Source: Pedobacter changchengzhani (GTDB lineage: Bacteria > Bacteroidota > Bacteroidia > Sphingobacteriales > Sphingobacteriaceae). From it: 64,000 nucleotides of DNA. Of this stretch, positions 12,652 through 58,921 are shown one piece after another. Numbering within the stretch: position 1 is the first letter of the stretch; each line of letters starts with the position of its first letter. The notes beneath the pieces are model-generated. The model worked only from the letters and a program-made list of their open reading frames with translations. It was not told the DNA's origin and made no database searches. The DNA lies in contig NZ_SJCY01000001.1 in NCBI RefSeq assembly GCF_004354365.1, forward strand, positions 1-64,000, in the 5' to 3' direction. The translations under genes were made by a program, and so were the position numbers.

Positions 12652-12675
12652 GGGTTTTTTAAAAATAATTGAAAC

Positions 12676-16034: not shown

Positions 16035-16048
16035 TGTTTTTGCTTTTG

Positions 16049-16085: not shown

Positions 16086-16239
16086 AACAACCTGAGTGTA
16101 ATATAAAAGCCCAAAAACTTCACTTTTTTACAAATTTTGATTTAAAATAAACCAACAAATTTTCCCTTTTAAGCTCAATAATTCTAATTTCTTAGCTCAC
16201 ATATCTTACATCTCGTATCTATTTCTTATTTTGCACAAA

Positions 16240-17388: not shown

Positions 17389-17390
17389 TT

Positions 17391-18788: not shown

Positions 18789-19248
18789 AAAAGCGGCTTT
18801 ATTAGTCGGGATATTTTTTGCAATTTCCCTTCTATCAAGTTGTGCGAGCAATATTGCTGATGTGAATGTGGAAATTCCTGACCATGCTTGGAGTTACAGA
18901 AATCATATTAAAGCCAGTTTCGAGATAAAAGACTATACAAAAGCCTACAACATCTATTTTAAATTAAGGCATACTGCCGATTATAGGTATGCCAATATTT
19001 TTATTCTCGCGCATTTTAAAAATGATAAATCAACGGCAACAAAACGCTTTGAATTTAAATTGGCTAAAAACGATGGAGAATGGTTGGGCAGTGGATCGGG
19101 CAATCTTTTTACCTACAACTTGCCTTTACTTAGCAATTATCACTTCGAAAAAAATGGTAAACATGAAATTGATTTGGAGCAAAACATGAGGGATAATCCA
19201 TTGATGGAAATAAGTGACGTTGGTATTTTGGTTGAGGAAGTAAAGTAG
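18757..19248 (+). CDS. gldH: GldH-family gliding motility lipoprotein
   Basis: 163 residues. A lipoprotein signal ends at LLSSCASN. The body (IPDHAWSYRNHIKASFEI, IYFKLRHTADYRYANIFIL, GEWLGSGSGNLFTYNLPLL, ISDVGILVEEVK) matches GldH. In Flavobacterium GldH is needed for gliding; in non-gliding relatives it is kept with unclear function. The ATG at 18757 lies inside ricT (32-nt overlap, different frame), and this start is needed to keep the signal peptide. Confidence 0.88.
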   Translation: MVQKLSLLASKKAALLVGIFFAISLLSSCASNIADVNVEIPDHAWSYRNHIKASFEIKDYTKAYNIYFKLRHTADYRYANIFILAHFKNDKSTATKRFEFKLAKNDGEWLGSGSGNLFTYNLPLLSNYHFEKNGKHEIDLEQNMRDNPLMEISDVGILVEEVK

Positions 19249-19360
19249 TAATGGTTAATCATCTTGGTTAGGTAAAGTATTGAGCGTTACGCTAAAATAA
19301 TTTGCTAAAAGCTTTTCTTTGTAAAATATTTGTTATAATTGTGAAACTAAATTAACAATT

Positions 19361-22219
19361 ATGATAAAAAAATTACTCAAATTATTTCTAGTATTTGCTT
19401 TTTTTGTATGCTCAAATCAAGTAGTTGCACAAAGTTTACAAGGAAAAGTTGCTGACTCTTCAGGAGTTGTAATTCCTGGTGCAAGCGTACAAATTGTAGG
19501 GCAGAAGTTGGGTACATCAACTAATGCCAACGGTGTGTATTCGATAAAATTACCTGCTGCAGGTTCTTATAAGGTTAGGGTAACTTTTACAGGTTATGTT
19601 AACAATGAGCAGGCTGTTGCGGTAGGCAAAACAGTAACTACATTAGATTTTAGATTAGACGAAACGAAAGCCGATTTGGGCGATGTTGTTGTGATCGGAT
19701 CAAGATCTACACCAAGAACGAACATTGAAAGTGTAGTTCCTGTAGATTTAATTTCTACTAAAGATATTAAAGTTTTTGCTCAAACAGATTTAACGCAAAT
19801 TTTAAATTTCGTTGCACCATCTTTCAGTTCTAATAGGCAAACCGTTGCCGATGGTACGGATCATATAGATCCTGCATCTTTGCGTGGGTTAGGTCCTGAT
19901 CAAGTATTAGTTTTGGTAAATGGAAAACGCCGACACACTACTGCTTTAGTTAATATTAATGGTACTTTCGGGCGTGGTTCGGTAGGTACGGATTTAAATT
20001 CTATTCCCGTTGCTGCAATTGAGCGTATCGAGGTTTTGCGTGATGGCGCTGCAGCCCAATACGGTTCTGACGCGATTGCTGGTGTAATTAACATCGTACT
20101 TAAAAAAGTAACACCTTATAGCTTCTCAACTTCATTCGGTCAATCAAACTCTAAAGCTTTAGGTCGCGAGTTTTTGGATGGACGTACTTTCCAAGCAGAC
20201 TTTAGTAAAGGATGGGCTTTTAATAACGATAAAGGATTTATAAATTTTGCAGTACAATATCTAAAAAGAGACAACACCAATCGTGGTGGATTAGATACCC
20301 GTCCGCTTTTGTATGCTGCAAACCCAACCAAAGGCGCATTAGAAAGTGAAGCAGCTTTCCAAGCACGTTTTGCGGGCATAAAGGCTGCAGATGACGCTAG
20401 GGCGGCTGCCAATGGATTAGACAGAAACAACATGCAAGTTGGTCAGTCAGATTCTCAAAATGCTGGCGGTTTTTTAAACGGACAATTTAATTTAGGTAAA
20501 ACTGCAGAATTGTATTTTGCGGGTGGTATAACACATAAAACAGGTAGCGCCGCTGGTTTCTACCGCTTGCCAACCCAAACTACTCAGGTAGATTTAAGTA
20601 TCTATCCGAATGGATTTTTACCTTTAATCGATACGAAAATTAACGATTACTCTTTCTCTTTAGGTTTAAGAGGTAAATTAGGTACTTGGGATTATGATTT
20701 GAGTAATACAAGTGGCGAAAACACCATTAAGTTTAATATTAACAATACTGTAAATGCATCTCTGCCAACAGGAACAAGCCCTACTTCGTTTTACGCAGGC
20801 GAACTGTTGTTTAGACAAAATACTAGTAATTTCGATTTGAATAAAAAACACACTTTTGACGGTGGTTTTTTAACCTCCTTAAATACTGCTTTTGGTGCTG
20901 AGTTTAGAATAGACAATTATCAAATTAAGCAAGGTGAGCCATTGTCTTATTCAAATGGTGGAAGAATGATTGGTACCTCGCCAACAGCTTCAGGATCGCA
21001 AGTTTTTCCGGGATTTAAACCTGCTAATGCTTTAGATAAATCGAGAAATAACGTTGGTGCTTATGCAGATTTTGAAGCAGAATTTGGCAAACGTTTAACT
21101 TTGGAGGCTGCGGGTCGTTATGAGAACTTTAGTGATTTTGGTTCTAACTTTTCTTATAAATTTACAGGTAAGGTTAAGCTTTTTGGCGATGTATCTTTAC
21201 GTGGTGCTTATGCAACTGGATTTAGAGCACCGTCTTTACACCAACAATATTTTAACAATGAGAGCACGCAATTTGTAGGCACTAATGCCACACAGGTATT
21301 AACCGTAAACAATGCAAACCCAATTGTTGCTCAATTTGGTGTTGGTGCTTTAAAACCAGAAATTTCTAAATCTGGTAGTTTAGGTTTGGCTGGCAGAATT
21401 GCTAAAACATTTACGTTTACAATTGATGCGTATAATATTGATATAAAAGACCGTATCGTTTTCTCAAGTCAATATGCTCGAGAACGTTCGGGAGGCGTTT
21501 TGGTTCCAACAGGTGTTGTAAATCAGATTTTAAATACAGTTGATCCAACGGCACAAGTTAATAGTGTGCAGTTTTTTACCAATGCAATTACTACAAATAC
21601 TGCTGGTATTGATGTTGTGTTAACCAACAAATTTACGTTTAGCAGCAAAAGCAATTTAATTTTAAGCGTTGCGGGTAATGTAAATAAAACTGTGGTAAGA
21701 AGCATTCAAGGGTCGCCAAAAATTGAAAGTGATCCAAACCTAAAAGCAAAGTTGTTCGATCGTTTAGAGCGCTCTCGATTTGAAAGCTCAGTACCTAAAA
21801 ATAAATTAAACCTTACTGCTACTTTAAATATCGAAAAATTATCATTTGTTGCTAGAACGGTGCGTTTTGGGGAAGTAACTTTTTTAAACGCAGTTGATCC
21901 AAATATTCCTGCAAATGGCTTACCTGTTCAGTTAGATCAAACATTTTCTCCTAAATGGGTGAGTGATTTTTCTGTAAGTTACCAAGCAAGCAAAGTGTGG
22001 TCGGTTACTGTTGGTGCAAACAATATTTTTGATGTTTATCCAGATAAGTTATATATCGATCCTCGAGACAATGCAAATAATTTGAGCGGAACGCCAGGAA
22101 ATACTTATTCCGGTAGCCTTGATAATACTTCAAACGGAAGATTTTTATATCCTAGAGCGGTTAGCCAATTTGGATTTAACGGCCGTTACGTTTATGGAAA
22201 AATTGCTTGTACATTTTAA
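19361..22219 (+). CDS. TonB-dependent outer-membrane receptor (not SusC type)
   Basis: 952 residues. A signal peptide ([13 protein letters not shown]) is followed by a carboxypeptidase-regulatory-like domain (about 25-110), a plug (about 120-235; [71 protein letters not shown]) and a barrel ending in GKIACTF. The plug resembles siderophore/cobalamin-type receptors rather than SusC, and no susD follows. The substrate is unknown. It is monocistronic with a terminator at 22237. Confidence 0.93.
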
Positions 22220-46298: not shown

Positions 46299-46425
46299 TT
46301 TAAAAAACTATCATTATTCGCCCCACTTTGAAAGGGGAAAATTAAAATTTTAGAAAGAATTTAGGTTTCGCTTGCAAGGGCGCGCTTAAGCAAAAAGGCA
46401 ATATTTGGCAGAATATCCCCGACAT

Positions 46426-46469
46426 TACGGTTTCCCGTAACGTTTAGGGTTTTTGATGTATTATCTTTG
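46426..46469 (+). promoter_or_regulatory. Inverted-repeat promoter, site 1
   Basis: TACGG-TTTC-CCGTA (46426-46439), then exactly 22 nt, then TATCTTTG (46462-46469), a Bacteroidota -7 box. The inverted repeat sits over the -33 position, as for a site bound by an activator that replaces the -33 contact. The gene starting at 46544 is downstream. Same architecture as 47015 and 61006. Confidence 0.7.
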
Positions 46470-46543
46470 GTTTTGTACATCGAAACAGGTCATATTAATG
46501 CTAAAACTCATATCAATTTAAAATAATTTTAACCCTTTAAAAA

Positions 46544-46948
46544 ATGAAAACTATAATACTTTCCGTTTTATTAACTTTAGCTTACATCATTTCATTTGGG
46601 CAGGCCCATTTAGGTTTAAGTGAATCTGAAATAAAAAGCTTGCACCCTGATAATGTTTGGACTAGAAATAGCACAAATAAGGGTATAAAATATATAGTCT
46701 CCGATTTTTTTTATGGAACCTTTGCATATTATTTTGATAGTGAATCATCGCTTTCGGATTGGGTGATACAGATACCATTTAACAATATTAAATTAAATGG
46801 ACAGGTAGAAGAGTACAATAAGAAGTATGTAATTACTTCAGACACCACTTGGACTGCTTATTTGGATGGAGGAACGAGACTGTACATCAGTTTACTTTAT
46901 GATGAGGACAATAAGAATTCCTATTTTTCATATTCGGATACAAAATAG
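46544..46948 (+). CDS. Small exported protein, hypothetical
   Basis: 134 residues with a signal peptide (LTLAYIISFGQ). The mature part (HLGLSESEIKSLHPDNVWTR, GTFAYYFDSESSLSDWVIQIPF, ISLLYDEDNKNSYFSYSD) looks like a small alpha/beta domain. No family named. It is driven by the inverted-repeat promoter at 46426 and lies next to the two-component genes, so it may be a regulon member. Confidence 0.65.
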   Translation: MKTIILSVLLTLAYIISFGQAHLGLSESEIKSLHPDNVWTRNSTNKGIKYIVSDFFYGTFAYYFDSESSLSDWVIQIPFNNIKLNGQVEEYNKKYVITSDTTWTAYLDGGTRLYISLLYDEDNKNSYFSYSDTK

Positions 46949-47014
46949 ATTCGGCAAGCTAAAGCGTTGTTAACCTTACGTCTGAATATTTTAAAATAAA
47001 AATAATTTCAATAG

Positions 47015-47058
47015 TACGGTTTCCCGTAAGTTTTGTATTTTTTGATGTGTTATCTTTG
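47015..47058 (+). promoter_or_regulatory. Inverted-repeat promoter, site 2
   Basis: TACGG-TTTC-CCGTA (47015-47028), 22 nt, then TATCTTTG (47051-47058). Sequence similarity to site 1 extends through the spacer (TTTTTGATGT). No good gene begins within the next 480 bp, so it may drive a long leader into the Hsp70 cluster at 47557 or an unrecognised small gene. Confidence 0.68.
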
Positions 47059-47556
47059 GTTATTATTAAGATATGAGGGTATTTTAAGTAATTATTGAGG
47101 TGTTATGCGGATGAGAATACGTGTGTATGCTTCCTAAAAATATTTAAATAGAAAAGAAAACTAATTAGATCAAAAAAAATATACTGTTAACGCTTGCTCT
47201 CAATTTAAAATGTGGGGATTGTTCCTATTCTTGGGATGGAGGAGGGCAATCTCCCGTTTTTGAGGAAAAACTAAAAAATTTTATTAGATTCGTTTATTAG
47301 ATAATTTCCTGGTAAATATAAAAAACACGTCACTAATACTGAATATGATTAAAAAATTAAGGCTCCTCAAATTTTGGATATTTATTCCATGTACTTTCGC
47401 TAAACCAAAAATTCAAGATTTTGATCATGTTTCGTTTCGTAAAAGAGAAAAGAGCAGACACTTCTTTTTGGGAAATTAGGACACTTAAACAGCAACTTCG
47501 GCATAGTGAAATATGTAATTGCTTATACTTAATTCAATTTATTAAAATGAATAAAA
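47059..47556. other. Approximately 500-bp region between promoter site 2 and the Hsp70 cluster
   Basis: No convincing gene. The longest ATG frame noticed runs 47345-47479 (44 codons, MIKKLRLLKFWIF start) and has no family support. A stretch near 47218-47265 is G-rich and could fold. If transcription starts at about 47065 this would be a long 5' leader. Confidence 0.4.
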
Positions 47557-49293
47557 ATGCTCACAATTTTAAATAACCCATATCGAACAGTTGGTCTGCT
47601 TGTTGGAGCGACAGCAAGAGAACAGGAACGGCAAACGAAGCGACTGAAACAATTTATGGAAGCAGAACAAGAGCCAGAAGATGACTTTAGTTTCCCTGCA
47701 CTTGGCAAAATAGTTAGAACAGCTGAGAGTGTAACAGATGCAGCGTCTAAACTAAATCTTGATGGCGACAAAATGAACGCAGCACTTTTTTGGTTTTATA
47801 ATGGTAATTCTATTACAGATGAGCCTGCGTTTGATGCGTTGAAAGATGGGCTGATAAAAGAAGCTGCTCAAATTTGGGGTAAACATGTAGAAAATAAAGA
47901 AATAGCTAAAAAAAATGCTTCTGCTTTTTTTAACTGGTCGACTTTGTTTCTAAATTCTGCTTTCTCTAAAAATTTAGTTGTTGATGGTCATTTGGAAAAA
48001 GGCATTTCACTAAAACTAAAATTTCTTGAGAGTGATTTTATAAAGGACTTCAAAGAGCTAGCAACTTACGAAACTTATAAAACAACCAAAAAAGAATTAC
48101 AAGTTATTTTTTTAAATCAAATACTAGTAGAAATTGAAAAAAGCAATAAAATAAACATCGATCAATTTCTAAAAATAATTATTAAGCAAGTATTTTCTGC
48201 AAAAGAAGATTTTCTAAAAGATTTTGTTGAAAAACCCATTGCACAAATTGAAAAGCTAATTGAAGAGACAAGGAAAAAACAAAATGCAAACCCAGCAAAA
48301 GCAGGAGATTATGGGAATGAATTGTATAACAATATAGAGCCTTTATTAACTTCAATCGTTTCAATTCTTGGCAAAACTAACATTAAGGTAATTTCAGTAT
48401 CAGACAAAGTTGCAAATGAAGTTTTGCAATGTAGTATTAATCTTTTTAATCATTTTCACGAGACAGGAACAGAGGTTGGAGAAATTGCTTTAGACTTAAA
48501 TAAAAAAGCAAAAATTATTGTGCTCGGAAGCGTTGTAAAGGAGAGAATTAATGAAAGCACACCGATTGTTGAACGATATATTAGAGAAAGACCGGAAAGA
48601 GAAAAGTTAAATAAAATTAAAGAAGAATTTGAATTTATTGGAAATAGACTTGAAAACTTTCAATCCTCGAATGATACAGTAAATAATGCCAATTCATTAA
48701 TTACAATATGCAAACCCAAGCTTTTAAAAATAAAACAGGCAATTGGAGCAAGTGATGATTTTTACATTAATTTAAGTAGCTCTGTTGTTCAAAATTCACA
48801 AAATATGCTTGTAGCTGCTGTAAACAAAAAACTAGAAGAACATTCAGCAAGTGCATCACTTGAAAGTTTAATTACAGAAGCATTAGATGTGTCCTTTAAA
48901 CTTGGCACTTTCGATATGAATGCTGCCTTAAAAATCCATTATCAAAAAAATTTAGATGGAATTAAATCAATAGCAAATCAAATTGGAATTTCTACGTTAT
49001 CTCCAAAAGAAAAACTACAAAATGATTTACGAAGAGCAGAAATTAATTTAAAGGACACCCAAAATACAACTTTTTTTAAATCTGAAATATCAAATGCAAA
49101 AACTGAAATGGATCGGATAAAAGAATGGCAATTTTTAAGAAGTGATTCTGATAGAGAAAAGCAAATAAATGCCCAGCAACAGAAAATCACTACTATAGAA
49201 AGAAGAAGTGGTACAGAGAAGATTTCGCAATTAAATAATAAGCAGAAGATAGTAAATGACATAAAATTGAAAATACAAAATGCAGAATACTAA
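47557..49293 (+). CDS. Helical protein with J-like N-terminus, Hsp70-cluster component
   Basis: 578 residues, no named family. The N-terminus LNNPYRTVGLLVGATAREQE has the opening pattern of J-domain-like proteins (NPYxxLG followed by a Lys/Arg-rich helix), but the HPD motif that stimulates Hsp70 is absent. The region up to about 110 (FPALGKIVRTAESVTDAASKL, NAALFWFYNGN) is of a type I associate with uncharacterised Hsp70-linked proteins. Residues 110-578 are almost wholly helical with coiled coils near the end (DLRRAEINLKDTQNT, NAQQQKITTIERRSG). It is followed after 1 bp by the GrpE-like gene and then hsp70. Role as co-chaperone is inference. Confidence 0.65.
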   Translation: MLTILNNPYRTVGLLVGATAREQERQTKRLKQFMEAEQEPEDDFSFPALGKIVRTAESVTDAASKLNLDGDKMNAALFWFYNGNSITDEPAFDALKDGLIKEAAQIWGKHVENKEIAKKNASAFFNWSTLFLNSAFSKNLVVDGHLEKGISLKLKFLESDFIKDFKELATYETYKTTKKELQVIFLNQILVEIEKSNKINIDQFLKIIIKQVFSAKEDFLKDFVEKPIAQIEKLIEETRKKQNANPAKAGDYGNELYNNIEPLLTSIVSILGKTNIKVISVSDKVANEVLQCSINLFNHFHETGTEVGEIALDLNKKAKIIVLGSVVKERINESTPIVERYIRERPEREKLNKIKEEFEFIGNRLENFQSSNDTVNNANSLITICKPKLLKIKQAIGASDDFYINLSSSVVQNSQNMLVAAVNKKLEEHSASASLESLITEALDVSFKLGTFDMNAALKIHYQKNLDGIKSIANQIGISTLSPKEKLQNDLRRAEINLKDTQNTTFFKSEISNAKTEMDRIKEWQFLRSDSDREKQINAQQQKITTIERRSGTEKISQLNNKQKIVNDIKLKIQNAEY

Positions 49294-49294
49294 T

Positions 49295-50242
49295 ATGAAA
49301 ATCAAAATAACACTCACAATACTCTTGTTTTCTTCGATTAGTGCATTTGCACAGATAACGAAAGAAGATTTAGATAAAGAAATTAAGCCTTTAAATGAAA
49401 AGCTTAAAATACTTCAATTGGAAAATAATAAACTAAAGATTCAGTTAGAGACAACAAATATTAAACTAAAAACTGTCAATAAAAATATTGATAGTTTGAG
49501 AAATGAAACTAAAACCAATGGCGATGCAATAACTCAAACTGCAAATGAATTAGGATTAAAAATAAAAGAAACAGGTGACCAAAATGCTGGAAACATTTCT
49601 AAAATTTCTAAATCCTTAAGTAAAAACTCACTCTTTGGAATTATTGGTGTTCTTTTAGCCATTCTTCTTTCATGTGTGTTGTATTGGTTTTTAAGTAAAA
49701 AACAAAAAATAGATAAAATTGAAGTTGAAGAAAAATTTGCTGATAATAAAGCCTCATTAAAAATAGATGTTGTTTCTGAAATAGAAAAATCAAAAAAAGA
49801 ACAGCAAGAAGTGAATGTAAAATTGGAACAGAAACTTATTGAAATTTTAGAAAATCAAATCAAAAGAATAGAAAGTACAGACATCAACATTGGCGAAATT
49901 GATGTAAAGCCCATTGATCATACTATGCCACTGAAAGTAGCTGATGAAATCACACGAATTAATGCTTATGCCAATTCGCTCGATCCCAATAGTCAAGATT
50001 CAAAAGCACTAAAAAGCTCAGTAAAACGACTTGTAAGTACATTTAGAGCTGAACAGTACGAAATTGTAGACTTACTTGGACAAAAATATGATGATGGGAT
50101 GAAAGTTACAGTTGTTGGCTATGTCCCTAATGCAAAACTATCCAAAGGTGAAGAGATAATTTCAAGAATTATAAAACCACAAGTTAAGTTCAAAGGCGAG
50201 CAAATACAAGCAGCGCAGGTAGATGTTTCAATTGGAGAATAA
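49295..50242 (+). CDS. Single-pass membrane protein with GrpE-like cytoplasmic domain
   Basis: 315 residues from ATG 49295, chosen over ATG 49280 because it gives a clean signal peptide (MKIKITLTILLFSSISAFAQ) and a 1-bp gap instead of an overlap. Order: signal peptide, extracytoplasmic coiled coil (about 21-105), membrane helix (about 113-134; IIGVLLAILLSCVLYWFL), cytoplasmic coiled coil (135-195), then a C-terminal domain (about 215-315) resembling the GrpE head and beta wing: EQYEIVDLLGQKYDDGM, VVGYVPNAKLSKGEEII and IIKPQVKFKGEQIQAAQVDV. GrpE is the Hsp70 nucleotide-exchange factor, and the next gene encodes an Hsp70. The assignment rests on pattern and context. Confidence 0.68.
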   Translation: MKIKITLTILLFSSISAFAQITKEDLDKEIKPLNEKLKILQLENNKLKIQLETTNIKLKTVNKNIDSLRNETKTNGDAITQTANELGLKIKETGDQNAGNISKISKSLSKNSLFGIIGVLLAILLSCVLYWFLSKKQKIDKIEVEEKFADNKASLKIDVVSEIEKSKKEQQEVNVKLEQKLIEILENQIKRIESTDINIGEIDVKPIDHTMPLKVADEITRINAYANSLDPNSQDSKALKSSVKRLVSTFRAEQYEIVDLLGQKYDDGMKVTVVGYVPNAKLSKGEEIISRIIKPQVKFKGEQIQAAQVDVSIGE

Positions 50243-50265
50243 TAAATCATAAAATAGAATTACAA

Positions 50266-52827
50266 ATGAGAAATAAAATAGATTATGGTATTGATTTGGG
50301 TACAACCAATTCGGCAATTGCCAGAATGGAAAATGGCAAACCAAAAATTATTCAAACTGATTTACAAAAAGATACAATGCCTTCAAGCGTAGCAGTTAAT
50401 CCAAGGAAAAATATCATCGTCGGAGACGCGGCCTATGCAGCAAACATTAAAGATAAACTTCGATTATTGAAGACATTTGGTAAGGATGATTCAAGTAGTT
50501 ATATAGAGTTTAAAAGAACAATGGGTAAAGATGTAAAATACCGTAGTTCTTTACTCGATAAAGATTTTACTTCTGAAGAACTGTCAGCAGAAGTACTTAA
50601 AAAACTAAAATCATTTGTAACTGATGAGCAAATTAAATCAATTGTAATTACTGTTCCTGCAATGTTTACAATGGCACAAAACGAAGCTACGATGAATGCT
50701 GCTCGTTTAGCTGGTTTTGAAGTTATTGAACTATTGCAAGAACCAATAGCCGCATCTATTGCCTACGGATTAGATTCTAAAGAAAAAAATGGTAAATGGT
50801 TGGTTTTTGACTTTGGCGGTGGCACTTTTGATGCTGCACTTGTAACTGTTGATGAAGGTATAATGAAGGTGTTAGACACGGATGGCAACAATGAACTAGG
50901 TGGTAAAGACTTAGATTTAGCCATTGTGGACGCAATAATTTTACCATATTTAAAAGAAAATTATTCTATAGAAGGTATACTTGCAGATAAAGACAAAAGA
51001 GAAATTTTGAGAAATGCAATGAAATCATTTGCAGAAAAGGCAAAAATTGATTTGTCTTTTAATTCTTCAACAGATATCACTTGTTTTCCGGATGAGATAG
51101 GTGCCAATGACGAAGATGGTAATGAATTGGCTTTGAGCATAGATATTAATCAAGAAGATTTAGAACCGGTTTTTCAACCTATTTTTCAAAAAGCAATAGA
51201 CATAACAAAAGAAGTATTATTAAAGAAAAATCTAAAAGGTAAAGATATTGATTGTATAATATTGGTTGGTGGGCCAACTTATTCGCCAATATTGCAACAA
51301 ATGTTAAAAGATCAAATTACAGACAAAGTAATTGCTAAAAATCAAATGACTTCAGTGGCTACAGGAGCAGCAATTTATGCTTCTACAAAAGATATTGGTA
51401 TGGCACAACCGGCACCACCTTCTGGAACCATAGCATTAGATTTAAAATATGAGTCTGCAACTGTAGATGAAGATACCTTAATCAATATTAAAATTAATTC
51501 AGCATTAACTACTTTTAATATCCCCGAAAAAGTATTTGCAACCATAGAAAGAGGAGACAAAGCATATTCAAGTAACAAAACACTTATTAGCGATAAAAAA
51601 GCAACGTTAATTGAGGTTTTGTTAAATCAAAACGATTCAAATTATTTTTCAATTATTTTAACTGACGAAAAAGGTGATAGAATACCTTGTGAACCAAATA
51701 ATTTAACTATAACAGATATTCACATTCCTTCTGCACCTCTACCTTACCATATTGGCGTGCAGGTTTGGGATAGTAAAAAGGAAATAACTGTATTTAAAGG
51801 CTTGAAAGGTCTTGAAAAAAATCAAATTTTAAAAGGAGCAGTCGGCATTACGCCACAAGGTTTAAAAACACCAAAGCAACTCACAGCAGGTAAAGTTTCC
51901 GACGTGTTGAGAATACCAATTTTTCAAGGATCAGACGGTGCAGAAGGTAAAAATTCATTTCAGAGTAACTTTGTTACTGAGGTGGTAATTACAGGCGAAT
52001 CAATACCGAGAGTTGTTCCTGCAAATTCAGATGTAGAAATTACTTTGACATTTGACTCATCTGGCGCAAAGCCAATTTGTTCAGTATTTTTTCCAGTTAT
52101 TGATTATACTGAGGAGGTCGATGTAGAATTTACAGTTGAACAAAAAGTGGCCGAGAAATGGCTTCATTCTGAGATTAATTCAGATATTAAAAGAGCGGAA
52201 GTACTTCTAGGGGATAATCATATTGCAGAATTAGACAAATGTTTATCAGATTTAGAATTGCTAAAAGCAGATCTAAAAAATGAGAGTGGTAGTGAAGACG
52301 GTAAAATGAAGATATTAAATAGTTTAAGGAAAATACGTAATATTTTAGATAATTATGAAGCTGACATTGAATGGCCAAAAGCTGAGTCTGAATTGAAGAC
52401 AGCCTATTATGATGCTGAAGAATTAATTGAAAAAATTGATGAAGGTAATTTATGGGGAAATATAAACGAAGACAGGGTTAGAAGGCAGTTAAATGAATTT
52501 AAAGTTTATATCGAAACGATTCTAAAAGAAAAAGATATTAAATTAGCTAATGAAGTAAAAGAAAATATCAACAATTTAATGATTGTTCTATTTGACCAAT
52601 TTAGAGATGAGGGTGATAGAGAGAAAGGATATATTGAATATATCGATGAGAATTTTTCGGACCTTCCTTGGAAGGATGCTAATAAAGCGAGGCAATTAAC
52701 CAATCAAGCATTAACAAATATTAATACTGGTGGCAGTTTATCGCAATTAGAACAATTATGTGTTCAAATCAACAATATACGAGATCGGAACAATCCAAAT
52801 CAGCCTGACGGGATACCAAAAATTTAA
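50266..52827 (+). CDS. Divergent Hsp70-family chaperone, 853 residues
   Basis: The ATPase domain (1-380) is well conserved: phosphate-1 IDYGIDLGTTNSAIAR, connect-1 EPIAASIAYGLD, phosphate-2 LVFDFGGGTFDAALV, adenosine motif IILVGGPTYSPILQQML. DnaK is about 640 residues; here about 110 extra residues (385-490) with beta-strand character separate the ATPase domain from a DnaK-SBD-like segment (about 490-570; LPYHIGVQVWD, LRIPIFQGSDGAEGKN), followed by a second beta region and a long helical C-terminus (630-853). It probably has its own clients. It sits between the GrpE-like gene and a small secreted protein gene. Confidence 0.93.
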   Translation: MRNKIDYGIDLGTTNSAIARMENGKPKIIQTDLQKDTMPSSVAVNPRKNIIVGDAAYAANIKDKLRLLKTFGKDDSSSYIEFKRTMGKDVKYRSSLLDKDFTSEELSAEVLKKLKSFVTDEQIKSIVITVPAMFTMAQNEATMNAARLAGFEVIELLQEPIAASIAYGLDSKEKNGKWLVFDFGGGTFDAALVTVDEGIMKVLDTDGNNELGGKDLDLAIVDAIILPYLKENYSIEGILADKDKREILRNAMKSFAEKAKIDLSFNSSTDITCFPDEIGANDEDGNELALSIDINQEDLEPVFQPIFQKAIDITKEVLLKKNLKGKDIDCIILVGGPTYSPILQQMLKDQITDKVIAKNQMTSVATGAAIYASTKDIGMAQPAPPSGTIALDLKYESATVDEDTLINIKINSALTTFNIPEKVFATIERGDKAYSSNKTLISDKKATLIEVLLNQNDSNYFSIILTDEKGDRIPCEPNNLTITDIHIPSAPLPYHIGVQVWDSKKEITVFKGLKGLEKNQILKGAVGITPQGLKTPKQLTAGKVSDVLRIPIFQGSDGAEGKNSFQSNFVTEVVITGESIPRVVPANSDVEITLTFDSSGAKPICSVFFPVIDYTEEVDVEFTVEQKVAEKWLHSEINSDIKRAEVLLGDNHIAELDKCLSDLELLKADLKNESGSEDGKMKILNSLRKIRNILDNYEADIEWPKAESELKTAYYDAEELIEKIDEGNLWGNINEDRVRRQLNEFKVYIETILKEKDIKLANEVKENINNLMIVLFDQFRDEGDREKGYIEYIDENFSDLPWKDANKARQLTNQALTNINTGGSLSQLEQLCVQINNIRDRNNPNQPDGIPKI

Positions 52828-52887
52828 AAAGTCATTGGTGCCGCCGATTGATATCGAATAATTAAAACTAAATAAGACAGTTAGCTA

Positions 52888-53298
52888 ATGAAACTTAAAT
52901 TAAATATGAAATATATATTGGCAATAGTACTACTACTTTTTCTGTCTGCCGGAGTTAATGCTCAGGCAAGGCTCACAATTGAAAATAACTCAATGCGTTC
53001 TATGACTGTAAAAGTGATGAAGTCGTTTGGGACAACAGGAACGTTGCACGAGACTGTCACTATCGGCCCTTATGATACTCAAGTAGTAGGCTTTTCGGAA
53101 AGTGGATATTATTTTACAAAAACAAAAGCTGTATTGAATGGAAAAGATCCAGTTTACAGAAAAGGCCAATCCTTTGAGGTTACAAATAACGCAAGATCCT
53201 ATTCGGTATTGAAATTGACTTTCTCTATTAAAGAATCTAGAATTCCGCAAGCTACCGGCGGGAAACAGATTTCCAAGACAGAGTTTGATCAAAATTAA
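52888..53298 (+). CDS. Small secreted protein within the Hsp70 cluster
   Basis: 136 residues (ATG at 52888; ATG at 52906 would give a tighter signal peptide). Signal sequence LLLFLSAGVNAQA. The mature domain (LTIENNSMRSMTVKVMK, VTIGPYDTQVVGFSESGYYFTKT, YSVLKLTFSIKES) looks like a small beta sandwich. No family named. As an exported member of a chaperone cluster whose GrpE-like protein has an extracytoplasmic coiled coil, it is a candidate ligand or sensor; this is speculation. Confidence 0.7.
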   Translation: MKLKLNMKYILAIVLLLFLSAGVNAQARLTIENNSMRSMTVKVMKSFGTTGTLHETVTIGPYDTQVVGFSESGYYFTKTKAVLNGKDPVYRKGQSFEVTNNARSYSVLKLTFSIKESRIPQATGGKQISKTEFDQN

Positions 53299-53345
53299 AT
53301 CGAGGCTATCATCTCAGACATTATTACATCGTTTATTTATACTAA

Positions 53346-54095
53346 ATGAGTAAGGCAAAGAAAATGCAAGTAGAGGGGAAAGAAATAACAATTCTTGTTC
53401 AAAATGAACAAGAATATATTTCTATTACTGACATGCTGAAAGCTAAAGATGGCGATTTTTTTGTTTCGGACTGGCTTCGTAATAGGAATACAGTTGAATA
53501 TTTAGGAATTTGGGAATCAATTTATAATCCTGATTTTAATTATGGCGAATTCGCCACAATTAAAAGTCAAGTGGGTTTAAATAGTTATAAATTAAGCATT
53601 AAAGATTGGGTTGAAAATACAAATGCCATTGGCTTAAAAGCCACAGCTGGCCGTTACGGTGGCACTTATGCTCATCCCGATATTGCTTTTGAATTTGGCA
53701 TGTGGATAAGCCCGAAATTTAAGATTTATTTGGTTAAAGAATTCCAACGCTTAAAAGCCGATGAGAACAGCCGTTTACAATTAGAATGGAATTTACAACG
53801 CACCATTTCTAAAATAAACTATCGAATTCATACCGATGCTATCAAAGAAAATTTGATACCCAAAGAAATTACAAACCAACAATCGAGTTTGGTTTACGCC
53901 AATGAAGCCGACTTATTAAATGTAGCATTTTTTGGAATAACTGCAAAAGAATGGAGATATACCAACCGTGCCAAAGCGGGTAACATAAGAGATGATGCGA
54001 GTTTGGAACAATTGGTAGTATTGAGTAATATGGAAAGTATAAACGCCTTACTAATTCAACAAGGTTTATCACAAGTGAAGGCTTTTTTCAGCTAA
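53346..54095 (+). CDS. KilA-N domain protein, intact copy
   Basis: 249 residues. The KilA-N DNA-binding domain (about 10-135) shows EYISITDMLKAK, WLRNRNTVEYLGIWES, RYGGTYAHPDIAFEFGMWIS and FKIYLVKEFQRLK. The C-terminal region (about 190-249; AFFGITAKEWRYTNRAKAGN, LVVLSNMESINALLI) is conserved with the decayed paralogue at 57296. KilA-N domains occur in phage and mobile-element regulators. It may be a transcriptional regulator of the cluster or a passenger. Confidence 0.92.
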   Translation: MSKAKKMQVEGKEITILVQNEQEYISITDMLKAKDGDFFVSDWLRNRNTVEYLGIWESIYNPDFNYGEFATIKSQVGLNSYKLSIKDWVENTNAIGLKATAGRYGGTYAHPDIAFEFGMWISPKFKIYLVKEFQRLKADENSRLQLEWNLQRTISKINYRIHTDAIKENLIPKEITNQQSSLVYANEADLLNVAFFGITAKEWRYTNRAKAGNIRDDASLEQLVVLSNMESINALLIQQGLSQVKAFFS

Positions 54096-54159
54096 ACAAA
54101 GTTGCAATTACTCTAATGAGATCGTTGGTTGAAAGTAGCGCAATAAAAAAAATGAAGTA

Positions 54160-55971
54160 ATGGACGTAAATTACAAAGGCATATTACCAAAGAACTTTTT
54201 AGTAAATGAAAGGTATTCTGTTATGTTCTTTATAAAGCAAGGTAGTAATGCTGAAACCTATCGGGTGAAAGGGAAAGATGGAAAATTGTATTTTCTAAAA
54301 TTGTTTAATTATGCGAAATTGCATCGCTCTGCATTTGATAGCGAACAAAATTTATTAGAAATCGAGTTTTTAAAATCTATCGATAATCAGAACATTGTCA
54401 ACTACGAGGATAATGGAGAACTGATATATGAAGGGAAAAAATCTGGTTACTTAGTGCTTAATTTTATTACTGGAGAAACTTTAGCAGAAAGAATTATAAG
54501 AGAACCAATTTCATCATTATATGATTTAAGGCAAATTGTTTTAGGGATATTGAACGGATTAAATTATTTACATAGTTTACCCGATCCAATAATTCATAAT
54601 GAGATTACGCCTCAAAATATTATGCTTGATTTATCAGAAGATATTGTACAAGCAAAAATCATAGACTTTGGCTATGCTCGTTCATTTCATCAATCTTCTA
54701 AATCGTTTTCAAAAGAAGGTTTAAATTTGAACTATGTGGCTTCAGAATGTTTCAATAATTTTTATTCACCACAGTCTGATTTATTTTCTTTAGGTGCAGT
54801 AATTTATCATTTGCTTTTTGGAACACCACCTTGGTTTAAGGATATATCGAGGTTTAAAGCTGATAGAACAAAAGCTGAAGATGTAATTTTAGAAGAACGT
54901 CAAAAAAAGCTTCCGTTTCCTAACGTCTCAAAAAATATTGTTGATTTTGAAGAATCGTTTTTGAATATCATAAAAAAGGCTTTGCAAGATGACCCTGAAG
55001 ATCGGTTTCAATCTGCCAAAGAATTCATTCGAGCTTTAAATGGAGAGATAGAAGTTGAAGATGTAGACACCGTTCAAAAAGTAAAATCAGACGATAAACC
55101 ACTAAATAAAATACAAAACCAAAAAGCCAAAGGAAAAGGGTTTGACGCTATCGCTGGTTTGGACGATTTGAAGAGCGAGATGAGGAGGTCTGTAATTGAT
55201 ATTCTTCAGAATCCTGAAAAAGCAGAGAGATACGGCGCCAAGTTGCCAAATGGAATGGTTTTATATGGTCCCCCTGGTTGTGGTAAAACTTATTTTGCAA
55301 AATGTTTTGCGGAAGAAGTAGGGTTCAATTTTATCATGGCAACCCCATCAACTCTGAAAAGCCGGTATGTAAATGCTACTCAAGAAAACATTGCAACGAT
55401 GTTTGAAGATGCAGAGAAAAATGCACCTACCATCATATTTATAGATGAAATTAACGAACTACTTCCAAATCGCGATAGTGATTCTCATGAAATGGCTAAA
55501 AGTGCAGTAAATGAGATGCTAGCTCAAATGGATCGAACTGGTGAAAAAGGAATTTTTATCATCGGCGCAACAAATTATCCCAATATGATAGACCCAGCCA
55601 TGCTTAGGTCAGGACGATTAGAAAAAAAGTTTTATTTGCCTCCGCCTGATTCTAAGCTTAGAAAATCTCTTTTTGAAATGAGCTTAAGTGCTAGAAAAAA
55701 GGTTTTAGATTTTGGAATTGATTATGGCATTTTATCTAAACTAACAGAAAATTATGTTAGCTCCGACATTGAATCCATAGTTAACGAAACTACTTCAATA
55801 GCTATGGCAGAGAACACTAGGATAACGATGGCTTTGCTAGAAAAAGTAATTAAATCATTCCAACCATTTCCAAAAAGCGAATTAGAGAAATATGAAGTTA
55901 TAAAGGCTAAAATGGACGGAGAAAATACTGTACGAAAGAATAGCCGAAATAGCATCGGTTTCAAAATTTAA
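54160..55971 (+). CDS. Protein kinase-AAA ATPase fusion with degenerate kinase motif
   Basis: 603 residues. Kinase-like domain (about 20-290): glycine-loop region IKQGSNAETYRV, Lys in FLKLF (K47), catalytic-loop equivalent HNEITPQN (146-153) instead of HRDxKPxN, DFG intact (169-171), and SLGAVIYHLLFGTPPW. The catalytic Asp is replaced by Glu and the loop Lys by Thr, so kinase activity is doubtful. AAA domain (about 325-590): Walker A GPPGCGKT (370-377), Walker B IIFIDE, sensor IGATN, arginine-finger region MLRSGRLEKKF. The AAA part resembles Cdc48/FtsH-class remodellers. It is followed 11 bp later by the TerB-like gene. Confidence 0.93.
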   Translation: MDVNYKGILPKNFLVNERYSVMFFIKQGSNAETYRVKGKDGKLYFLKLFNYAKLHRSAFDSEQNLLEIEFLKSIDNQNIVNYEDNGELIYEGKKSGYLVLNFITGETLAERIIREPISSLYDLRQIVLGILNGLNYLHSLPDPIIHNEITPQNIMLDLSEDIVQAKIIDFGYARSFHQSSKSFSKEGLNLNYVASECFNNFYSPQSDLFSLGAVIYHLLFGTPPWFKDISRFKADRTKAEDVILEERQKKLPFPNVSKNIVDFEESFLNIIKKALQDDPEDRFQSAKEFIRALNGEIEVEDVDTVQKVKSDDKPLNKIQNQKAKGKGFDAIAGLDDLKSEMRRSVIDILQNPEKAERYGAKLPNGMVLYGPPGCGKTYFAKCFAEEVGFNFIMATPSTLKSRYVNATQENIATMFEDAEKNAPTIIFIDEINELLPNRDSDSHEMAKSAVNEMLAQMDRTGEKGIFIIGATNYPNMIDPAMLRSGRLEKKFYLPPPDSKLRKSLFEMSLSARKKVLDFGIDYGILSKLTENYVSSDIESIVNETTSIAMAENTRITMALLEKVIKSFQPFPKSELEKYEVIKAKMDGENTVRKNSRNSIGFKI

Positions 55972-55982
55972 AAGAAAAAAAA

Positions 55983-56498
55983 ATGGAAACAATTACATTC
56001 GACAAACTTTTACTTAACACAGCTTTTTGCTGTATGGCTTCTGATGGGAATATTGATAAAAAAGAAATTGCTTTGATAAAGTCAATGTGTGAAAATTCAC
56101 CATTGTTTAAAGAGTTTAACTTCCAAGAAGAAATCAATTTACTTGTAAATGAAATAAACTTAAGAGGAAAGGAATTTATTTCGAGCTATTTTAACTTATT
56201 AGACAAAACCTCACTAACCGAAGAAGAAGAACTAATTTTAATCGCCTTTGCAATTCAGACTATCAAAGCTGATGATCACATTGAGTATTCTGAAATAAAG
56301 TTTTTCAAAAATATTAGGCATAGATTACAAATAAACGATGAAAATATTTTGACAGTTTATCCAGACATTGAACAGTTTCTAGAAAAAGATATTATTACAG
56401 AATCATTCCTTGATAAAATCACTAATCAATACCTCGAAACTGCCGATTTGCCACAATTTGAGTTAATTAACGTTGATAAAAATTCATTGCTCGATTGA
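55983..56498 (+). CDS. TerB-like acidic helical protein
   Basis: 171 residues, all helical. Two metal-binding-like motifs in the TerB style: ASDGNIDKKE (about 19-28) and KADDHIEYSE (about 95-104), with the pattern D-x-x-I-x-x-x-E. TerB proteins belong to tellurite-resistance/stress systems and are thought to act at the membrane with kinases, ATPases and chaperones. Here the partner is the kinase-AAA protein just upstream, so the two probably form one functional unit. Confidence 0.85.
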   Translation: METITFDKLLLNTAFCCMASDGNIDKKEIALIKSMCENSPLFKEFNFQEEINLLVNEINLRGKEFISSYFNLLDKTSLTEEEELILIAFAIQTIKADDHIEYSEIKFFKNIRHRLQINDENILTVYPDIEQFLEKDIITESFLDKITNQYLETADLPQFELINVDKNSLLD

Positions 56499-56610
56499 AA
56501 AAAGATGAATAACCTCATTTAAATTTTCATTAAAATTCTTGAATTTTAAAAATGCTTTATGATGACTATAAATTGCTGTAGTTGCCAAAAAGCAAAAGCC
56601 TTCGCCATCA

Positions 56611-57000
56611 ATGCAAACAACTTTCAGAAACATTCTAATCATAATCGCTCCTTTTCTGATCATGATTTTGGTTAACGAAATATCTAGAAAGTATATTAGC
56701 GCTAAAGGAGATACAAAAAACGGTATTACAGCAATCAACTCCTCAACTACATTTGCAAACAAGTGTTCTTGGCAATGCCATAACAATACTGCTTATTGTA
56801 TGCAGCATCATGTAAAATCACCAAAATACTTGGTCAACATAATTAAGCCGTTTTATTTTGGAATGATATCGGCATTAGGCGCAACAGGGGGATATGCTTT
56901 GGCTAATATTGTATTTTTAGTTCTACTTTGGCCTATTTTTATGTTTGTATTGTTTATAAAAGTTTTGGATAATCGTAAAAAATTAAGTCGGTTACGATGA
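56611..57000 (+). CDS. Membrane protein with Cys/His cluster
   Basis: 129 residues. One N-terminal membrane helix (about 8-22), a loop with C52, C56, H57, C63, H66 and H67 (KCSWQCHNNTAYCMQHH) that could bind a metal or heme, and a long hydrophobic C-terminal region (about 80-117). No family recognised. The next gene starts inside its stop codon (ATGA overlap at 56997), so the two are coupled. A 112-bp gap precedes it. Confidence 0.7.
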   Translation: MQTTFRNILIIIAPFLIMILVNEISRKYISAKGDTKNGITAINSSTTFANKCSWQCHNNTAYCMQHHVKSPKYLVNIIKPFYFGMISALGATGGYALANIVFLVLLWPIFMFVLFIKVLDNRKKLSRLR

Positions 57001-57191
57001 GGTATATATTGGAAATAGTCAATTGGATGTACGTCTATTGTACAGATTTTGTTATTAACGTGGCGAACCTTACAAAACTCTCGTATTTCGAAATCAATGC
57101 ATTTTTATTTTGTGTGCTGTGGCCAGCAACTACTGTTATTTTAATCCTTATTTACATCAAGCAGAATATAAAATTAAAAAAGAAACTGTAA
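56997..57191 (+). CDS. Small two-helix membrane protein
   Basis: 64 residues: hydrophobic segments near MYVYCTDFVINVANL and in LFCVLWPATTVILILIYI, then a basic tail (KQNIKLKKKL) that should face the cytoplasm. The 4-nt overlap with the preceding Cys/His membrane protein suggests the two act together. Function unknown. Confidence 0.6.
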   Translation: MRYILEIVNWMYVYCTDFVINVANLTKLSYFEINAFLFCVLWPATTVILILIYIKQNIKLKKKL

Positions 57192-57295
57192 TTTAAAATG
57201 ATGATTAGCATTATTATTTCAGCCATTTTTTAAAATTAATTATGAAAAGCATCTCTTATTATGCTAATTAGTGTGTTTCTCAATTATGTAAAACT

Positions 57296-57890
57296 ATGGC
57301 AAAAATCAACGTAAACGACAAAGAAATTACGATTATAACAATTGAGGAGCGAGATTACATATCGCTTACCGACATGGCAAACGCAAAAGAAAACGAAAGC
57401 CGTGCGGCAGACATTATTAAAAATTGGATAAGAACCCGTTATACGCTTGAATTTTTGGGGACTTGGGAGCAAATTAATAATCCTAATTTTAAAGTGGTCG
57501 AATTTGACCACTTTAAAATGCAGGACGGTTTACCAAGCTTCGTGCTAAGTATTTCAGAATGGATTGAGAAAACCGAAGCCATTGGAATAATTGTTAAGAA
57601 AGGTAAATACGGTGGAACTTATGCTCACAAAGACATTGCTTTTGAGTTTGGTTCGGCTATTCGGAATTACAGCTAAACAATGGCGAGAAGGCAATCCAGA
57701 TCTAAAAGGAAATGTTCGAGATTATGCAAATATGAACGAACTGATTTGTCTTTCAAATATGGAAAGTCTAAACTCAGTTTTCATTAACGAAACGATGTCA
57801 CAATCAGAGCAACTCATTAAGTTGAATAAAATAGCCATTCACCAAATGAGTATATTACAGGAAATTGAAAAACGTAAATTATTGAAATAG
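57296..57890 (+). pseudogene. KilA-N domain gene, disrupted by internal deletion and frameshift
   Basis: 57296-57676 encodes the N-terminal KilA-N part (DYISLTDMANAK, YTLEFLGTWEQI, KYGGTYAHKDIAFEFG) and then runs into a false end. From about 57665 to 57890 another frame continues with RLFGITAKQWREGN and CLSNMESLNSVFIN, matching the C-terminus of the intact copy at 53346-54095. Compared with that copy about 75 codons are missing between FEFG and FGITA and the join is out of frame. A nonfunctional remnant, or at most a free KilA-N domain. Confidence 0.85.
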
Positions 57891-57909
57891 TAATTATTCT
57901 TAACGCTAC

Positions 57910-58233
57910 ATGCCCAAGCTCGTCAAAACCATTCTTGCAATCCTCCTATTCCTTTGCCTATTAAACATGCCTTACGGTTATTATGAATTAGTAAGGTTTG
58001 TGGCGATGATTGCCTTCGCCTATTTGGCTTATGAAGCGAATAGAGGAAAGAAGCAAACAGAAGTAATCGTATATATTGGTTTAGCCTTATTGTTCCAGCC
58101 GTTTTTTAAAATTGCTTTGGGCCGAGGTTTGTGGAATGTTTTAGATGTAATTGTAGGGGTGGGATTAGTCACTTCACTTTTTATAAAGCCAAAGCAACAG
58201 GATGACCTTAAAAATAATTCAGACCATTTATAA
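57910..58233 (+). CDS. Small multi-pass membrane protein, DUF6804-like
   Basis: 107 residues with three to four hydrophobic segments: TILAILLFLCLLNMPYGYY, FVAMIAFAYLAYEANRG, VIVYIGLALLFQPFFKIALG and VLDVIVGVGLVTSLFIKP. The YGYY..VRFVAM and QPFFKIALGR words fit the DUF6804 family as I remember it. It ends 3 bp before the GH25 lysozyme gene, so a holin-like role is possible but unproven. Confidence 0.7.
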   Translation: MPKLVKTILAILLFLCLLNMPYGYYELVRFVAMIAFAYLAYEANRGKKQTEVIVYIGLALLFQPFFKIALGRGLWNVLDVIVGVGLVTSLFIKPKQQDDLKNNSDHL

Positions 58234-58236
58234 GAT

Positions 58237-58866
58237 ATGACAACCAAAATAATCGACGTATCATCGCATAATGGCATCATTGATTGGAAAAAAGTTGCCA
58301 ATTACGGCGTTTCTGACGTGATTATTCGATTATCGTTAGGTTATGGAGATAAAGATGTGATGGCTCGTAGATATGCTATAGAAGCAAGCGAAGCTGGACT
58401 AAATGTAAGTTATTATCATTTAGCATTTCCCGATACTAGAGAAGGAACTATTTCTGTTGATGCAACTCAAGAAGCCAATTATTTCACGAGTCTATTTCAG
58501 GAAGGGAAAATGCCAACTCCTAAATGGCTTGCTGTAGATTTAGAACAAATGAATAATGGCTGGGATACGCCATTGAATAAAACTGAGTATTTGAGCTGGG
58601 TTAAGATTTTTATTCGTCAGGTTTATTCAAATACAGGATTAATTTGTTTCATATATTCAAACCAACCATATTTGGATGCCCATCTACCCGCAGACCATGG
58701 GCTTGGATCTATCCCGTTATGGATAGCGAACTACAATAATGTATCTTCGCCACGTTTACCCAAAGGGTGGTCTCAATATTTTTTATGGCAATATGCTGAA
58801 ACAGGCGCTGTTAAAGGTATAAAAGGTCATGTCGATTTGAATATTGTTAGGCGGAAGGATAATTAA
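58237..58866 (+). CDS. GH25-family lysozyme (muramidase), no signal peptide
   Basis: 209 residues. Cleaves peptidoglycan glycan strands. GH25 signatures: IDVSSHNGIIDWKKV at the N-terminus, VSYYHLAFPD, the catalytic LAVDLEQ (D-x-E), IPLWIANYN, and YFLWQYAETGAVKGIKGHVDLNIV. There is no export signal, which is usual for phage endolysins and implies a holin or lysis-dependent release. The preceding small membrane protein is 3 bp away. Confidence 0.94.
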   Translation: MTTKIIDVSSHNGIIDWKKVANYGVSDVIIRLSLGYGDKDVMARRYAIEASEAGLNVSYYHLAFPDTREGTISVDATQEANYFTSLFQEGKMPTPKWLAVDLEQMNNGWDTPLNKTEYLSWVKIFIRQVYSNTGLICFIYSNQPYLDAHLPADHGLGSIPLWIANYNNVSSPRLPKGWSQYFLWQYAETGAVKGIKGHVDLNIVRRKDN

Positions 58867-58921
58867 AACCTCTATTACTAATCCTTAAATAAATCAATAC
58901 TCAAATAACTTAATCCAAAAA

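Follow-up and report, generated by a model that had tools for sequence, protein, structure and literature searches.

The 64,000-nucleotide stretch of the Pedobacter changchengzhani genome analyzed here (contig NZ_SJCY01000001.1, positions 1 to 64,000; the window) carries a chaperone-like gene cluster, which an initial annotation had described as seven same-strand genes forming a candidate undescribed Hsp70-AAA-TerB system. All seven open reading frames (ORFs) were found in the predicted order at 47557-56498 of the + strand. They encode a J-like helical-repeat protein, a membrane GrpE-like protein, a divergent Hsp70, a small secreted protein, a KilA-N protein, a kinase-AAA fusion and a TerB-like protein of 578, 320, 853, 136, 249, 603 and 171 amino acids (aa), respectively. 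The spacing of the successive gene pairs (-14, 23, 60, 47, 64 and 11 bases, the first value being an overlap) makes a single operon plausible. The region is AT-rich, with a guanine plus cytosine content of 0.283-0.337 over 48-56 kb versus mostly 0.34-0.39 in the rest of the window. The window copies of the J-like, membrane and small secreted proteins gave no Pfam match above the cut-off.

To fetch relatives, a genome collection described as holding one genome per species (84,980 species) was scanned with aligned membrane protein sequences. The scan returned 164 relatives, and the locus counts given here rest on 80 of them. Because the loci were fetched with the membrane protein alone, the other operon genes provide independent evidence. 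The J-like gene was present in all 73 loci with enough contig room, in 72 of them directly upstream of the membrane protein gene, and the Hsp70 gene in 74 of 74, directly downstream in 72. The kinase-AAA and TerB genes were found in 55 and 47, respectively, of 57 loci with room. Co-occurrence in relatives had been set beforehand as the test of the proposed system, and the genes do co-occur: 46 of these 57 loci have all four partners. The order J-like, membrane protein, Hsp70, kinase-AAA, TerB was kept in 54 of the 80 loci (slot genes allowed, contig ends uncorrected). Four relatives (L011-L014, left out of the counts as duplicates of L068, L036, L026 and L092) showed the five genes in the same order without the secreted and KilA-N proteins. 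TerB is absent in L016, the J-like gene follows TerB in L017, and the contig of L015, left out for this reason, stops inside the J-like gene. The grouping of the Hsp70 with a GrpE-like protein, AAA and TerB is hence a conserved operon, the core of which comprises five genes and not the seven first proposed. The operon is real, and a search of open-licence papers found no description of it, so that the claim of an undescribed system stands as far as the literature searches reach. The features are collected in Table 1.

Table 1. Features of the chaperone operon and its surroundings in the window
Feature	Position	Strand	Basis or remark
Variable interval between conserved response-regulator genes and SNase-like gene	46300..58900		Other genes instead in two same-genus genomes (G094, G561)
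J-like helical-repeat protein, 578 aa	47557..49293	+	AlphaFold model, helical-repeat fold matches, profile comparison
J-like region, NPYRxxG...AT.RE motif, loop without HPD	47575..47784	+	Motif, model
Trans-membrane GrpE-like protein, 320 aa	49280..50242	+	Predicted model, hydropathy, GrpE profile
Predicted transmembrane segment, residues 118-134	49631..49681	+	Hydropathy
GrpE-like C-terminal domain, residues 210-320, two helices and beta part	49907..50239	+	Model, Foldseek
Divergent Hsp70, 853 aa	50266..52827	+	PF00012 3.3e-72 over residues 8-373
About 115 residues between nucleotide-binding domain and substrate-binding-like region, no DnaK counterpart	51391..51735	+	Alignment with the DnaK C-terminal profile starts no earlier than residue 491
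Small secreted protein, 136 aa, slot cargo	52888..53298	+	Signal-like N-terminus; same cluster in L051 and L064 slots (3 in all)
KilA-N protein, 249 aa, slot cargo	53346..54095	+	KilA-N 5.4e-25; PADLOC candidate PDC-S22 4.2e-121
Kinase-AAA fusion, 603 aa, p97/CDC48-like AAA module	54160..55971	+	Pkinase 1.8e-36, AAA 1.2e-36
His-Asn-Glu codons, kinase catalytic loop (HNE for HRD; Asp to Glu)	54595..54603	+	Alignment
TerB-like protein, 171 aa, two acidic repeats (DG.I...E, AD......E)	55983..56498	+	PF05099
DUF6804 small membrane protein, frequent sixth member	57910..58233	+	PF20619 1.3e-35; 33/57 loci with room

The strongest and most surprising point of the analysis is a trans-membrane GrpE-like protein accompanied by a dedicated Hsp70 and a p97-like ATPase. 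The GrpE-type exchange factors known to us are soluble, and no paper on a membrane GrpE was found in the open-licence literature. The predicted layout of the protein comprises a signal-like N-terminus, a long extracytoplasmic coil, one transmembrane segment, a cytoplasmic coil and a C-terminal GrpE-like domain. The membrane connection proposed for the system held throughout the family, as hydropathy analysis detected a hydrophobic signal-like N-terminus in 76 and a central transmembrane segment in all of 81 membrane proteins. The structural model had a mean predicted local distance difference test score (pLDDT) of 84.3 and a predicted template modelling score of 0.40, with a pLDDT of about 96 for residues 211-320. 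When the model was compared to the PDB with Foldseek, the top 12 matches were all GrpE or GrpEL1 (best E-value 2.7e-6, nine at E<=0.001). At the sequence level, a profile of 25 GrpE rows (two of which, L103 and L123, are doubtful, having been chosen as the longest ORF) matched the last 115 residues of 11 of the 81 members at E<=0.01 and of 21 at 0.1, versus none of 285 control tails from the other operon components at E 0.1. The profile-profile comparison placed the two families in register with an E-value of 0.0035 and a probability of 9%, the best of ten other profiles reaching 0.021. PF01025 matched 19 of 77 membrane proteins (best 7.4e-7, the matched part of the protein not being displayed), and the window protein itself had no Pfam GrpE match. 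The structure alignments included 77 of the 81 membrane proteins and 57 of the 79 J-like proteins. Altogether, the membrane protein is GrpE-like by its modelled fold and by family sequence similarity, and a role in ADP release is predicted for it. The genome carries ordinary GrpE, DnaJ and DnaK at other sites.

Several observations weigh against this assignment. The TM-scores of the GrpE matches were low (up to 0.48 by target), with root-mean-square deviations of 11-28 A over the long helices, which differ between the structures and so account for the low scores. None of the 81 tails matched the GrpE profile at E<=0.001. A PDB sequence search with the profile of the whole protein yielded coiled coils for the most part and retrieved no GrpE chain at E<=0.01, a result that may be expected because the coiled coil dominates the protein. 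Finally, the coil is placed outside the cytoplasm on account of the signal-like N-terminus, and its side of the membrane is to be taken as probable.

Small proteins stand beside related Hsp70s (828-829 aa) in two other genomes of the same class. In L188 a protein of 97 aa (6765-7058), weakly matched by the GrpE-like profile (16.1 bits), adjoins the Hsp70 (4272-6758); in L189 a protein of 109 aa (5560-5889), without a profile match and judged by position alone, lies beside the Hsp70 (5911-8400). These pairs resemble the operon in this arrangement and differ from it by the lack of a membrane anchor, J-like protein, kinase-AAA and TerB in the 14 kb viewed; they possibly reflect a soluble ancestor of the membrane system. 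In another relative, plasmid pHALHY02 (L191), the membrane GrpE-like protein is annotated as a septum formation initiator.

The partner Hsp70 is divergent, the window protein scoring 246.8 bits with the DnaK model TIGR02350, below the curated cut-off of 822.55 bits. The equivalents of the nucleotide-site residues D8, T11 and E171 were kept in 76 of 76 proteins. The DnaK C-terminal profile aligned to the Hsp70 over 95 columns (E 7.4e-4, probability 26%) and over 177 columns (E 1.6e-4, 50%), whereas eight other profiles gave 0.1 or worse; the region bears a weak resemblance to the substrate-binding domain of DnaK. The position of DnaK R167 is occupied by Glu in 62 of the 76 proteins, by Gln in 9 and by Arg in 2, and that of N170 by Gln in 72. 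We take R167 and N170 of DnaK to be J-domain contacts, and judged from the alignment their replacement would fit a rewired contact with the J-like protein.

That protein was modelled by AlphaFold with a mean pLDDT of 93.7 as nearly all helical. It consists of J-like helices (about residues 7-76), a helical-repeat body (about 84-480) and a long C-terminal helix (530-577). The N-terminus carries a pattern, NP[FY]R..G..AT.RE, conserved across members. In hhalign comparisons DnaJ helices I-II aligned with it in register over 22 columns (E=0.0011, probability 20%), and 11 other profiles gave E-values of 0.069 or worse. In hmmsearch with a DnaJ profile, 11 of 79 J-like proteins versus 4 of 287 controls were matched at E 1. 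Other data weigh against a canonical J domain. The HPD motif, present in 29 of 30 DnaJ rows (one row, L126, doubtful as chosen for its longest ORF), was absent from all 77 J-like N-termini that could be located, L052 being cut off and L018 too divergent to judge. At E<=0.1 the DnaJ profile matched none of the 79 proteins, and one coiled-coil control reached 0.03. The 25 most frequent Pfam families in 57 J-like members did not include DnaJ, and a PDB sequence search with the J-like profile found no J-domain chain at E<=5. The fold search with the whole model returned helical-repeat matches only, with no J domain among the rows displayed, which excludes nothing in this respect; the helical body dominated this search. 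Taken together, the sequence comparisons point to a weak likeness to DnaJ over the first two helices. Of the full Hsp70 cycle envisaged in the initial annotation, the pairing of the Hsp70 with a GrpE-like protein of its own is supported and a canonical J contact is not.

The first protein may instead be a target adaptor built of helical repeats that came to resemble DnaJ by convergence, and the cycle would then be run by the Hsp70 and the membrane GrpE-like protein alone. This is quite possible, if somewhat doubtful, and compatible with the reading of the whole operon given below. Apart from the missing HPD and the failure of the DnaJ profile at E 0.1, it agrees with L188, in which a GrpE-like candidate and a related Hsp70 occur without a J-like gene in the region viewed. 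It accommodates less easily the in-register match to helices I-II, far better than those of the 11 other profiles, the consistent change of the R167 and N170 positions, expected of a rewired contact, and the helix positions of the model, which follow the order of a J domain.

A transmembrane segment beyond residue 250 was predicted in 47 of 79 J-like proteins, often at the extreme end. The J-like proteins of 21 of the 79 loci contain a C[YF]IA[TS].[ALV]YG motif, and that of pHALHY02 is annotated as CFI-box-CTERM. A J-like protein of 941 aa, a protein of 216 aa and a related Hsp70 form a different operon in L018 (5974-12042), so that operons with J-like and Hsp70 genes may constitute a broader family.

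The AAA module of the kinase-AAA fusion has its best solved relatives, by PDB search, among p97/CDC48-type chains, and its Walker A, Walker B, sensor 1 and arginine fingers were intact in 70 or 71 of 71 proteins at each position. The kinase domain is less uniform. The catalytic Lys, the HRD Asp, the Asn and the DFG Asp were all present in 28 of 71 proteins; in 31, including that of the window, the HRD Asp was Glu with the other three residues kept, and in 42 the catalytic Asp was either Glu or lost. The window kinase, with its Glu, lacks this hallmark of an active Ser/Thr kinase. The residue states require three changes on the Hsp70 tree (built without L016-L018) and so mark lineages. The TerB-like protein matched PF05099 over residues 85-150 with 4.1e-5 and 24.3 bits, marginally below the cut-off of 24.4; its acidic positions were conserved in six of six sequences, and a PDB sequence search with its profile gave three weak matches (best 0.0058). 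A TerB search in viral contigs returned 16 stretches, none of them related. Two loci, L060 and L081, encode a fusion in which TerB forms the C-terminal end of the kinase-AAA protein (232 and 237 bits), suggestive of a joint function.

These features also raise the alternative of a Ter-like module for chemical stress or metal signalling, in which TerB would sense a ligand, the kinase-AAA protein would be the output and the Hsp70 a scaffold. The frequency of TerB, its two fusions and the kinase region present in all 71 aligned proteins speak for it, as do the TerY-P kinases that go with CoCoNuT systems, some of them with Hsp70-like proteins, in the available part of PMC11090510. Such a module is nevertheless improbable: TerC, TerD, TelA and vWA had no Pfam match in the seven proteins of the window, TerB is missing from 10 of 57 loci with room while the Hsp70 never is, and the TerB score itself falls just short of the family cut-off.

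Between the Hsp70 and kinase-AAA genes lies a slot, which was filled in 32 of the 72 loci having both genes. Its occupants include a cluster of 17 coiled-coil proteins, mostly with a lipobox (L075 and L096 are looser members), secreted SH3 proteins in 6 loci (PF08239 4.3e-8 and 8.6e-9 in the two scanned), DUF6804 in 6, and a second Hsp70 in 6 places. One of the latter, in L060, resembles a piece of a broken first Hsp70. The five longer copies (506-871 aa; L031, L062, L080, L081 and L083) lack the GIDLGTTNS phosphate-loop motif, and the first Hsp70 is intact. Most of the coiled-coil, SH3 and small secreted slot proteins have export-like N-termini. The KilA-N protein was considered as a core member and rejected, as it occupies the slot at three loci only (the window, L031 and L043). 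The secreted and KilA-N proteins of the window are exchangeable slot cargo. A second KilA-N gene lies downstream in two overlapping frames (57296-57676 and 57591-57890), the first part matching PDC-S22 with 184.8 bits; both frames were matched by the slot KilA-N protein, so that it is probably a broken copy.

Pairwise identities over 2145 locus pairs correlated more closely between the Hsp70 and the membrane protein (r 0.92) than between the Hsp70 and kinase-AAA (0.77). The most extreme contrast is that of the window, whose proteins share at most 50% identity with those of other loci in J-like, membrane protein and Hsp70, versus 83% in kinase-AAA and 78% in TerB, and this contrast makes it likely that the slot is also a joint between two modules. 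The order labels needed 18 changes on the Hsp70 tree (minimum 9, shuffled mean 27.2); they are clustered yet not clean, and horizontal transfer is not cleanly read from this tree.

We tentatively read the operon, with chances close to balanced, as a horizontally spread, membrane-coupled protein-remodelling machine, in which a trans-membrane exchange factor links envelope sensing to an Hsp70 and a p97-like ATPase. The GrpE-like protein would span the inner membrane, and its extracytoplasmic coiled coil would detect envelope damage or attack, probably with the assistance of exported products of the slot (lipoprotein, SH3 or small secreted protein). Its cytoplasmic domain would then alter ADP release from the dedicated Hsp70, while the J-like helical-repeat protein may recruit the target or hold the Hsp70 through a non-HPD contact. 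The loosened target would be handed on to the ring of p97-like AAA subunits, whose regulation or docking could fall to TerB and to the kinase or pseudokinase domain. We infer all of the binding, hand-over and sensing steps, as well as a role in phage or envelope defence.

A bolder version, which we consider doubtful, is a receptor-type Hsp70 machine with the membrane GrpE as a transducer. An outside event (phage adsorption, DNA entry, a contact toxin or an envelope breach) would provoke nucleotide exchange on the cytoplasmic Hsp70, and a kinase-gated p97-like unfoldase would dismantle a target of the invader or a suicide target of the host. Sensor (J, GrpE, Hsp70) and effector (AAA, TerB) halves would recombine at the slot, which would also swap envelope sensors.

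The distribution of the operon is patchy. With the J-like protein as query, matches were obtained in 2 of the 151 genomes sampled from the family and in 9 of the 395 from the phylum (the window genome included in both); among the phylum matches, that of G478 is fragmentary and contains stops, and that of G322 is a diverged J-like protein encoded in a different operon. The only same-genus copy in the sampled genomes is that of the window. In the same-genus genomes G094 and G561 the response-regulator and SNase-like genes are conserved with 3.8 and 6.5 kb, respectively, of other genes between them. A gene for 110-111 aa and an HSDR_N gene adjoin the response regulator in both, after which the contents differ; Pfam identified HSDR_N in the cargo of the two genomes and a PLD protein in that of one of them. 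A clean empty site was not found among the regions compared, and in G563 the response-regulator and SNase genes were not found between metG and pepT. The variable interval in the window also holds a GH25 lysozyme-like gene (58237-58866), for which the regions compared in three relatives showed no counterpart.

Defence genes occur among the neighbours of the relatives. Strong PADLOC matches comprised type I and III restriction genes, GajA, PDC-S69 and PDC-S22 in the downstream flanks (116 proteins) and PDC-S27, Cas1, SspB and BrxB in the upstream flanks (115 proteins). After the removal of proteins longer than 900 aa (4 of 124 downstream, 12 of 130 upstream) and of some at the ends of contigs, these sets comprised 116 of the 120 proteins on the downstream side and 115 of the 118 on the upstream side. 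At 1e-50 at least 11 of the 231 flank proteins were matched (among the first 25 families, with the KilA-N protein of L020 uncounted and protein overlaps possible), and none of 120 control genes from 14 other Bacteroidota regions, of which the best reached 1.8e-46. On pHALHY02 (732-20465), the sole plasmid record matched, the operon directly adjoins brxL/pglZ of BREX; SIR2/WD40 genes lie on its other side, with the SIR2 gene some way upstream.

Other results count against a defence role. At 1e-15 the control genes matched nine PADLOC families as well, with mad3 in 4 of 120 and five other candidates among them, so that the defence enrichment is modest. The cargo of G094 and G561 gave a single weak PADLOC match (DrmC, 1.9e-7), and the site is thus not proved a defence site. 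The membrane protein was not found in phage records or viral contigs. As to the core proteins, the J-like protein and Hsp70 had no PADLOC match; the membrane protein matched PbeC and DndD at 1e-6, likely through its coiled coil, TerB matched BnzA alone (E 0.0067), and kinase-AAA matched single domains of several systems. No one known anti-phage system in PADLOC had its own models matched by the core proteins. With the patchy distribution, the variable site and some defence neighbours, a defence role is plausible.

The same data bear on envelope proteostasis with no role in defence. The machine would then clear or extract damaged inner-membrane proteins or mislocalised exported ones under envelope stress, an explanation that we find rather unlikely. 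It would account well for the membrane GrpE-like protein, the transmembrane segments of the J-like proteins after residue 250, the exported accessory proteins and a p97-like AAA module, p97 having an extraction role; the neighbourhoods also suit it, as any one PADLOC family was limited to at most 3 of the 116 neighbours downstream and at most 1 of the 115 upstream. A housekeeping system, however, is expected to be common within a genus, and this one was found in 2 of 151 family genomes, with one same-genus copy, and occupies a variable site.

The membrane-coupled remodelling machine that we favour shares parts with known systems. DnaK, DnaJ and GrpE form with ClpB a bi-chaperone disaggregase, and the operon likewise brings together an Hsp70, a protein of GrpE fold, a J-like one and, as the likely partner, an AAA ATPase. 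It differs in that the exchange factor spans the membrane, the J-like protein lacks HPD, TerB is a partner, and the AAA protein is p97/CDC48-like, unlike ClpB, and fused to a kinase domain. Snl1 of yeast is a membrane-anchored BAG-type exchange factor and resembles our candidate in tying Hsp70 exchange to the membrane. Unlike the operon product, Snl1 is eukaryotic, has a BAG domain instead of GrpE, comes without an operon of Hsp70, AAA and TerB, and to our knowledge has no long extracytoplasmic coil. The ribosome-associated complex (Zuotin, Ssz1) offers an analogy only, that of a non-canonical extra Hsp70 beside an active one, for which the five longer slot copies without the phosphate-loop motif would be the counterpart; it is eukaryotic and ribosome-bound, unlike the operon.

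Among prokaryotic conflict systems, the anti-phage system Shango consists of TerB, an ATPase and a helicase and resides in defence hotspots (PMC10250203). It resembles the operon in combining a TerB-like protein with an ATPase and differs by its helicase, absent from the seven proteins of the window, and in that no Hsp70, GrpE or J-like protein is named in the available part of that paper. Hsp70-like proteins occur in and near the CoCoNuT systems, which TerY-P kinases accompany, so that the McrBC-type systems share with the operon an Hsp70-like protein, a kinase and Ter-related parts in a conflict setting (PMC11090510, available part). According to the same text, the related Hsp70 is in one group fused to a McrB-type GTPase and its Walker A-like motif is degenerate, and types II and III-A carry HEPN RNases; the operon core has no nuclease, and the nucleotide-site residues checked are kept. 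In the available parts of further papers, DnaJ takes part in phage sensing by bNACHT25 (PMC12169576), Ter parts in conflicts are discussed (PMC7824862) and PDC-S22 is listed among co-occurring defence subtypes (PMC12813430). No description of the operon appears in the accessible parts of these papers.

The interpretation offered in the initial annotation is thus partly supported. If the proposed reading is true, a membrane-spanning GrpE-like protein with its own Hsp70 and AAA protein, encoded in a mobile-looking operon, would represent a new route for a signal across the bacterial membrane and would connect chaperones with immunity or with defence of the envelope. A J-like protein without HPD, paired with an Hsp70 altered at the matching residues, would moreover provide a natural and testable case of an alternative way in which J-like proteins and Hsp70 may work together.

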